Source of the DNA: Bacteroidaceae bacterium
Lineage (GTDB): Bacteria > Bacteroidota > Bacteroidia > Bacteroidales > Bacteroidaceae
Direction: 5' to 3'
NCBI GenBank assembly: GCA_024698925.1
Contig: JAILQO010000031.1
Span: 1 to 64,000 of the forward strand
Length of the DNA stretch: 64,000 bases
Shown: one piece after another, positions 52,008 to 54,974 of the stretch
Numbering within the stretch: the first letter of the stretch is position 1
Layout: every line of letters begins with the position of its first letter
Notes under the pieces: generated by a model
What the model saw: the letters and a program-made list of their open reading frames with translations, nothing else
Told to the model about the DNA's origin: nothing
Databases searched by the model: none
Position numbers and translations under genes: made by a program

Positions 52008-54974
52008 TTATTTGCAAGTCAGGATAAAGGCGTAGTGATGAGGCTGGTTGCCGTCGATGGTGTATTGTGGCAGCGTACGCTTGCCCCAGGTATCGGCTCC
52101 GCCCACACCGTGGATATTCAAGTCTATGTTCAGGTTGACAAAACGCCCACGCGGCACATCGTTGGGGTGACGTACATCCTCCAGGTCTTCCTCACCATAG
52201 TCCCAGGCGCGGATACAGAGCGGCTGGAGTCCCTCAATGCTCAAAGTGCGTTTAGCGTTCCGTGAGGATATCTCGAACCAACGGACATCGCAGCGGTTGG
52301 CGTTATCCTGCGGATGGATATATTCGGTCTCATAGTCCTTGAGCGGCATCTGGTACACGCCGAGGAAAGCAGAACGCTTGCGGTCCGGGTAGTTCTCCCA
52401 AGGACCGCGACCATAGTAGCGCACCTGCGTGTAGTCAGCAGGAAGACGCATACGCATACCGAACTTGGGCATTACCGGACGGTCCTGAGCTGTAGGCTGG
52501 TAGTCCATCTCCACCAAAATACGATGGTCGCTGAGGACGGTGTAGCGGACTTGGACATCTTTGACCTCTTTCCACATCGCAACGCGGCGCGCAAAGCCAG
52601 CAGCGTTCTGGTTATCATTCTCCGGCTTCCAGAAGTATGGTTCCAGCGGCGCCTGCAGTACCTCGCGACCATCAACAATCCACGATGTGAGGGCATTGCC
52701 GTTGACGGTAATGGCCCCTTTAGAGCTCTCAGGGGAGGCAGAGGCCACAGGGCTTTGTGGCCACCCCCATGATTGGAGTACGAATTGTTCGCGGGCAATC
52801 ACAAAGCCTTTCGGTGCCCAAGGTTTATCCTCCTTCAGTCGGGCCGCGACGTTGAGTAGCGTCTCGCTGCCATAGCGTAGCGTGTCGTAAGTGATGGTAT
52901 ATTCGTCGGGTTCTGTAAAACAGTCATGATTGATGACGCGAATGCGGCCATCAGCGTCACGCTCGAAGGCGAGCGGTTGATAGACGTATTGCACCTCGTA
53001 GTAATGCGGATGTGGCTTGCGGTCTGGCGCGATGAGGCCATTGATGCAGAAACGTCCGTCGTTGGGTTTGTCGCCGAAGTCGCCGCCATAGAGGAATGAC
53101 GAATGACGAATGTCGAATGATGAATAAGATTTATCTGTGTCCTTGGAAGGCGTCTTGTATTCGTCATTCATCATTCGTAATTCGTCATTCGTCATTCGTA
53201 ATTCGTCATTTAATCCCTGATCCACCCAATCCCATACGGCAGCGCCGACAATGCTGCTGTCCGCATAGATGACATCCCAGTACTCCTGCAGGTTGCCGCA
53301 GGAATTACCCATTGCGTGAGCGTATTCTCGCATCATGAACGGTTTGTCCTGAACCTGCTGCGCATTTCTGCGCAATTCATCGGGATAGAGATAGCTGTCG
53401 TCCCAGATGGCTGAGTAGCGGCGGTCGCTGTCGTAGAACGGCGGACGGGTGGTATCCAGTTCGCGCACCTTATTGTACATCGCTTCGATATTCGGCCCTA
53501 CGCTACCTTCGTTGCCCAGGCTCCATAGAATGACGCAGGGATGGTTGACGTCGCGCTTGACCAACGATTCGGCTCTGTCAACGTGCGCTGCCTGGAACGA
53601 CAAATCGTCGCCCATCTCCTTGTTGGCGTAGCCGTAGCCATGCGTCTCGTGGTTCGCCTCGTCCATCACGTAGATACCCCAACGGTCGCAGAGCTCGTAG
53701 AGATACTCGCGGTCAGGATAGTGCGAGGTGCGCAGGAAGTTGATGTTCGCTTGCTTCATCAGCCGGATATCCTCTTCGTAGGTAGCATCATCAACATAAT
53801 GTCCCGTCTTGGGGTGATGGTCGTGGCGGTTCACGCCGCGCAGTTTCACGTTCTTGCCGTTAACCTTGAAGACATCGCCGACAATCTCCACCTTCTTCAC
53901 GCCAAAATGATTATCAAAGACCTCGTTGTCCTTAAGGTTTTTCATTCTCATTCCATCCAGTTCCACGGTATAAGGATAGAGCCAAGGCTTCTCTGCAGTC
54001 CACAGACGGGGTGGACTATCGTAGTGATAGGTGAATTCCACGGTTATGGTATCGCCTGCAGGCAGTTTGGGAATACGCCGGTTGGTTACGCTCCAATGGT
54101 TAGGATTAACGTTGATGCCATACAGTTCGGGACAAGCCATCTTCAGCTGAACCAGCAGGTCCTTTGCAGTTTTCTTGCCTGTATTGCATATAGCAATCTT
54201 AGCATTAACGGTGAACTTCGAGTAGTCGGCATTGGGAACGGCTTCCACCTTGTAGTCACAGATATGCACTTGTGGTCTTACCCAAAGTTGCACTGGGCGG
54301 AAGATGCCCGATAGGCGCCAATAGTCCTGATCCTCCAGGTAGCTGCCGTCGCACCAACGATAGACCTCCACAGCCACCTTATTCTTGCCCACGCGCATAT
54401 ATTTCGTCACGTCGAACTCCGCCGGCGACATCGAGTTCTGGCTGTAGCCCACCTTCTTGCCGTTAACCCATAGGTAGAACGCCGAGTGTACGCCCCCGAA
54501 GTGCAGGATAAGATGCTGCCTCTTCATCGCCTTCGTCACATCGACAGACGTCACATACGAGCCCACAGGGTTGCGGTTCTCGTAGGCCGTCCAGTCCGTG
54601 GGCGGTTCGGTGGTCACGCTGGGACGGTTCTTGACGAACGGGTAATTGATATTCGTATAAATAGGTGTGCCGTAGCCCTGCGTCTGCCAGTTGCCAGGTA
54701 CGGTAATCTTATCCCACTGGCTTACGTCGAAATCCTCGCGATAGAAGTCCGCTGGCCTCTCCTCGGGATTGCGGCTCCAATGGAACAGCCATTGTCCGTC
54801 CAGAGACACAATCTCCGGGCACGCCTTCTCCTTCGACGGCAGTTGCAAGGTAGCGTGATAGGGCAACTTGTTGATACCCAGTACTGCGGGGTTCTCCCAA
54901 TCTCTGGGTTGAGCCTGTGCTTGTAAGGTCAGCACGCCCCACATGACCATGAGGCCGAAAACCAGTTTCTTCAT
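52008..54974 (-). CDS. Glycoside hydrolase family 2 (beta-galactosidase) with in-frame repeat inserts
   Basis: [36 protein letters not shown]...[19 protein letters not shown]. Confidence 0.93.
53094..53207. repeat. Complementary heptamer arrays forming a fold-back inside the GH2 gene
   Basis: GAATGAC x4 variants (53094-53121) and ATTCGTC x7 variants (53159-53207), mutually complementary. Confidence 0.95.

Follow-up and report, generated by a model that had tools for sequence, protein, structure and literature searches.

A probable miniature mobile element of an uncultured Bacteroidales genus, with heptamer arms around a conserved palindromic core

Foldback (FB) transposons of Drosophila carry long terminal inverted repeats composed of short tandem units; they are eukaryotic, much larger than the bacterial element described here and built from longer subrepeats, and the analogy is one of form only. 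Cyanobacterial STRR heptamers (reportedly described by Mazel in 1990), with their embedded small dispersed repeats or SDRs (reportedly by Elhai in 2008), are said to form small palindromic units within tandem heptamer arrays, with several heptamers per genome, which is similar to what we see, but the SDRs are said to be 21–27 bp long, and the arms of our element are inverted around a core.

RPEs (Rickettsia palindromic elements) are palindromic repeats of 100–150 bp found both in intergenic stretches and within genes, where they are read in-frame as part of conserved proteins, among them an active enzyme (PMC2229807, PMC3733652). Together with their Wolbachia counterpart they are the closest to our element in behaviour, being palindromic, placed between or inside genes and in-frame, and the likeness proposed in the initial annotation of this DNA is claimed here only in that "works like" sense; they belong to a different phylum, and heptamer arms or a 41-bp core are not described for them (PMC2229807, PMC3733652). 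Closest in form are the Xanthomonas GGGAATC heptamer arrays, which make up 70–75 close convergent inverted pairs, dispersed and mostly intergenic (PMC4692102), but their unit is G-rich and quadruplex-forming, with no conserved core reported, and they are not presented as in-frame mobile elements. The TAACTGA repeats found in Beggiatoaceae, Cyanobacteria and five Bacteroidetes share with our case the heptamer direct repeats and the patchy spread over phyla, and often lie near start codons, with a regulatory cis role suggested in Beggiatoaceae (PMC4679880); they differ in being direct with almost no inverted partner, in lacking a core and in rarely occurring in genes. A polymerase-contact idea favouring 7-nt slippage is attributed there to Mrazek (2007, as reported in PMC4679880).

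Arrays of heptamers are in themselves nothing new. The literature searched yielded no account of this combination of core and heptamer arms; the initial annotation, which knew of no formal description for Bacteroidales, agrees with this for the element, while heptamer repeats as a class had been described in Bacteroidetes (PMC4679880). The element brings together two puzzles so far considered apart, namely the unexplained wealth of 7-bp tandem repeats in many phyla and palindromic in-frame protein insertions.

The insert in the GH2 gene

The window, a stretch of 64,000 nucleotides from a Bacteroidaceae genome, contains one copy of the element inside a beta-galactosidase gene, with the following features.

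52008–55052, minus strand: GH2 beta-galactosidase (LacZ type) host gene, open through the element; Pfam Glyco_hydro_2_C (E=5e-80), Bgal_small_N and Glyco_hydro_2_N
53094–53121, plus strand: left arm of the window copy, four heptamers, GAATGAC GAATGAC GAATGTC GAATGAT (sequence, TRF)
53122–53162, plus strand: core of the window copy, 41 bp, GAATAAGATTTATCTGTGTCCTTGGAAGGCGTCTTGTATTC, conserved among copies (genome search E=4.4e-6)
53163–53211, plus strand: right arm of the window copy, seven heptamers of GTCATTC type that are the complement of those in the left arm (sequence, TRF)

The two initially annotated arrays are present (within 53094–53211) and were both scored by TRF, with periods 7 and 21, while what had been taken for a spacer between them is in fact the conserved core. 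The proposed fold-back is borne out: as single-stranded DNA the insert folds at -31.7 kcal/mol versus -12.5 kcal/mol for shuffles (z = -8.0, with 0 of 200 shuffles as good), and its predicted folding as RNA reaches -48.5 kcal/mol. The open reading frame crosses the element without a stop, in agreement with the claim of an in-frame insert, and on the coding strand units 2 and 5 from the outer end of the right arm read GAATTAC, which removes the in-frame TGA. The window protein has ~37 residues where the T. maritima enzyme (6sd0) has ~9, with homology breaking exactly at the insert. Since many columns around the catalytic region are invariant in an alignment with 13 relatives, the gene looks functional.

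The same insert is not shared by all homologues. Several (L063–L065, L067, L069 and L070) have a plain loop of ~24 residues at this place, and others carry different repeats in the same loop: G079 (L062) has a fold-back of AATGGAC type there, G066 (L066) one that is C/G-rich, and G001 (L061) GTTGAAA/GTTCAAA units. Unrelated repeat families have thus entered one loop, which is an apparent hot spot for them. The G066 insert is 196 nt long, in-frame and very stable (-106 kcal/mol as RNA), and CCCCCGTGGGGGG repeats similar to it were seen at other loci.

Period-7 arrays and the conserved core

Seven-nucleotide periodicity above that of shuffled sequence was found in 464 kb of the source genome (G000), where 19 lag-7 runs of at least 11 matches compare with 0 in one Markov shuffle; there were none at lags 5, 6 and 10, and five at lag 8. 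This genome holds many unrelated heptamers, often with a complementary partner, and its tandem 7-bp units are dispersed over the genome as in STRR and other heptamer satellites. At least 114 stretches of species-representative genomes contain an exact (GAATGAC)3, against roughly 0.1 expected under uniform base composition, with Verrucomicrobia, Planctomycetes, Chloroflexi, Cyanobacteria, Bacteroidetes and others represented. An inverted partner within 400 bp was present in only 16 of the 80 such stretches read, and the core was clear in just one of them (L178, rumen Bacteroidales), while L217 and L153 look similar to it when compared by eye. Heptamers are therefore widespread and the core element is not. 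A degenerate pattern was present in 43 of 297 Bacteroidota genomes, and its reverse in three.

The dominance of period 7, the variety of unrelated 7-mers within one genome, the many arrays without a core and the excess of (GAATGAC)3 across phyla are what local replication slippage would produce, with arrays arising in place, inverted partners forming by hairpin template switching and nothing moving. However, such slippage leaves unexplained both why dozens of dispersed copies have a 41-bp core in common and the restricted distribution of that core, and the order of unit variants, compared by eye, is not mirrored between left and right arms, contrary to fresh hairpin copying. We therefore regard it as a rather unlikely explanation. 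Snap-back copying as the origin of the arms was rejected on the same unmirrored order. As for the shared generating process proposed in the initial annotation, the period-7 excess stands, and a single shared generator was not demonstrated.

A whole-genome search of the source genome (2.81 Mb, 85% complete) gave 95 matches at several dozen places. Fifteen copies there have a common middle part of 38–41 bp (exactly 41 in 13 of them), with the common sequence GAATAAGAGTTACC...GGTTTATTnTATTC, and it is this conserved core that makes the insert an element and not merely two arrays. With sister species included, the consensus core is GAATAAGAGTTACCTTCAGGATTTGAAGGTAACTTTTATTC, a 17+7+17 palindrome of which L311/L362 is a near-perfect copy; a 50-bp variant is present in G003. 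Pairing within the core reaches 75%, compared with 38–51% in slid registers. In all, 73 copies were tabulated from ~10 related genomes. Copies of 55–167 bp with complementary arms make this a short element with terminal inverted repeats, as in MITEs.

When genomes were searched with a sequence model of the core (R1), 39 places were found in G003, 17 in G066, 16 each in G000 and G087, 11 in G072, nine in G020, six in G101 and five in G100, the values for G003 and G066 being probably too low because contigs of these assemblies stop at elements. Most other genomes of the genus gave none or one weak match, and 116 other genomes of the order gave two weak matches only. As far as tested, and nearly all genomes compared appear to be incomplete draft assemblies, the core element is nearly confined to some species of this genus, which is an uncultured one of the Bacteroidales with rumen members. 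Several G003 and G066 contigs stop within or near an element (L333, L335, L350, L352).

The arms follow a fixed layout, in which RARTGAH units ending in RAAT precede the core, ATTY follows it, and 7-mer runs extend outward in fixed phase; read outward from the core, either side starts with TATTY and continues, in unchanged phase, with units of GTCATTC, TTCATTC or TTCACTT. GAATGAC arms are found in G000, G100 and G101, and GAATGAA or AAGTGAA arms in G072, G076, G020 and part of G087, while G003 and G066 have both kinds. The arm type matches on the two sides in 23 of 26 classifiable G003 copies (15 + 8 agree, 3 disagree; Fisher p=2e-4), and mixed-arm copies exist (L307, L314, L329); together with the arrays without a core, these indicate that arms can also arise or persist alone. 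The outer ends of copies tend to TA: the first base is T in 23 of 84 outermost units versus 3 of 271 inner units, and outermost units never start with C, which suggests a preferred outer terminus TAATGAC...GTCATTA. A module, CGTCATTCCGAGCGAAGCGAGATT, or its ends, is seen between arm heptamers (L305, L309–L313, L318–L321 and similar); it occurs in G003, G066, G072, G100 and G101 and starts with CGTC, the tetranucleotide tagging one REP superfamily.

In-frame copies and orthologous sites

Copies occupy intergenic stretches or, where they fall within a gene, tolerant places such as loops and linkers before membrane helices. Of the 73 tabulated copies, 19 lie inside an ORF that stays open for 120 nt or more to either side, a figure that includes a few questionable ORFs and one locus fetched twice (L178/L319). 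In-frame copies affect at least eight kinds of gene, identified by Pfam.

Window: GH2
L008: TrmB-type methyltransferase
L005: sugar MFS transporter
L017: PAP2
L178: FecR, with L003 probably similar
L330: M56/BlaR1
L361: histidine-kinase ATPase
L359: AAA helicase

With its 15 core copies in G000 and these hosts beyond GH2, the suspected family in conserved genes is real, and palindromic repeats are found in-frame in conserved protein genes as with RPEs. A run of GAATGAC has a TGA every 21 nt in any frame. TGA was found at 0 of 11 in-phase units of in-frame copies, compared with 36 of 41 out-of-phase units within those arms and 305 of 316 in other arms, where non-stop variants make up 11 of 316 as against 11 of 11 in phase; this absence is definitional, as an open frame must be without in-phase stops. 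What is informative is the presence, in genuine conserved genes, of the rare non-stop units, mostly GAATTAC, exactly at in-frame stop positions, and the associated p=7e-8 is optimistic because some of the in-frame copies are orthologues. Such inserts may explain odd extra loops in predicted Bacteroidales proteins, and could mislead annotation.

Alignment of orthologous regions of sister species revealed the empty sites that the initial annotation had called for: L356 is filled where L394 is empty, and the same holds for L351 and L395, L340 and L397, and L330 and L398/L399. The family thus has both filled and empty orthologous sites, as MITEs do. Orthologous flanks have diverged by roughly 3–30%, obscuring insertion ends and target-site duplications. 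In a membrane-protein gene three species (L343, L404, L405) have a copy at one and the same position.

We suggest that the GH2 insert is probably one copy of a miniature palindromic, MITE- or RPE-like mobile element whose arms are heptamer satellites. Core and arms would spread together through some enzyme acting in trans, after which the arms may grow, shrink and be altered through 7-bp slippage and exchange. Selection would have eliminated copies that broke genes, in which case the peptide encoded by the GH2 insert would be a tolerated passenger in the protein and not a function.

A variant of this scheme, which we consider possible though unlikely, is that a constant palindromic core is moved, the arms being rebuilt outward in 7-nt steps with the lineage's current heptamer by some enzyme. 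Cores at orthologous sites would then have different arms on both sides, and this is seen where the core is flanked by GAATGAC in L355 (G066) and by AAGTGAA in L402 (G003), on both sides in each case, and where L330, L411 and L412 have GAATGAC and L410 has AAGTGAA. However, the cores of L355 and L402 are quite different sequences, which makes a pair of insertions into a single permissive place just as likely there as arm replacement. With related species that have or lack the element, and with differing arm heptamers among them, the origin and renewal of heptamer arrays can be tested by strain comparison.

Movers, possible roles and other heptamer loci

Being palindromic, dispersed and small, the element could also be of REPIN or retro type, moved by a RAYT (Y1 transposase) or a reverse transcriptase, and its heptamer CGTCATT starts with the CGTC tetranucleotide tagging one REP superfamily (PMC3733652). 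Yet searches of the element-rich G000, G003 and G020 turned up no intact small ORF with a Y1_Tnp match (sub-cut-off in G000, borderline in a 433-aa frame in G003, none in G020) and no RVT_1 match at all; these genomes are 62–86% complete, so that each absence is weak evidence per genome. We nevertheless consider this origin very improbable. No long parent with the same ends was seen among the places inspected, which were all but a few in G101, G072 and G087; exact half-core 13-mers occurred mostly in complete cores. A phage or plasmid as carrier was rejected, no match having been obtained.

A role in cis, with the hairpin selected to regulate the mRNA or translation of neighbours as suggested for TAACTGA in Beggiatoaceae, would agree with the strong RNA fold of the GH2 insert and with several G000 copies that end 0–7 nt before a start codon. 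Against this, over all intergenic copies start-codon proximity amounts to 9 of 54, compared with 16% at control points (a control that includes internal ATGs), sister species differ in whether a copy is present, and no Rfam family matches the element. The core stems are also devoid of compensatory covariation (29 both-side changes versus a mean of 33 in column shuffles). Taken together, this makes selection for such a role highly unlikely. RNA-structure selection in the core was rejected, since covariation is absent, palindromic though the core is. Start-codon targeting was likewise discarded, as it looks strong in G000 but equals the control over all copies. At five G000 loci (L002, L004, L009, L011, L025) elements fill nearly the whole stop-to-start gap, ending a few nt before the start, a placement that shows no excess when all genomes are considered.

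Three further loci of the window carry heptamers.

49704–49797, minus strand: AATGGAC heptamers, a different family, as a pair of short direct arrays flanking a CTTCATGCGTGAAGCGTCCCTTTGGGCCGAGCG module and lying in-frame within miaB
50570–50612, plus strand: GTAAATC heptamers just upstream of tyrS
9034–9116, minus strand: AAATGAT/AAATAAT heptamers coding for a portion of the lipoprotein-like signal peptide of a 212-aa protein

All three arrays exist as initially annotated, with the correction that those in miaB are direct and not complementary. A recurring module, CTTSAAGNGTSAAGCGTCCCTNNGGGCCGAGCG, adjoins heptamer arrays at the miaB locus (in-frame) as well as in L028, L103 (4893–5015) and L337. 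At 9034–9116 the heptamers code for the hydrophobic part of the signal peptide (FIIYHLLFIISII), and a satellite here thus supplies a working-looking signal sequence.
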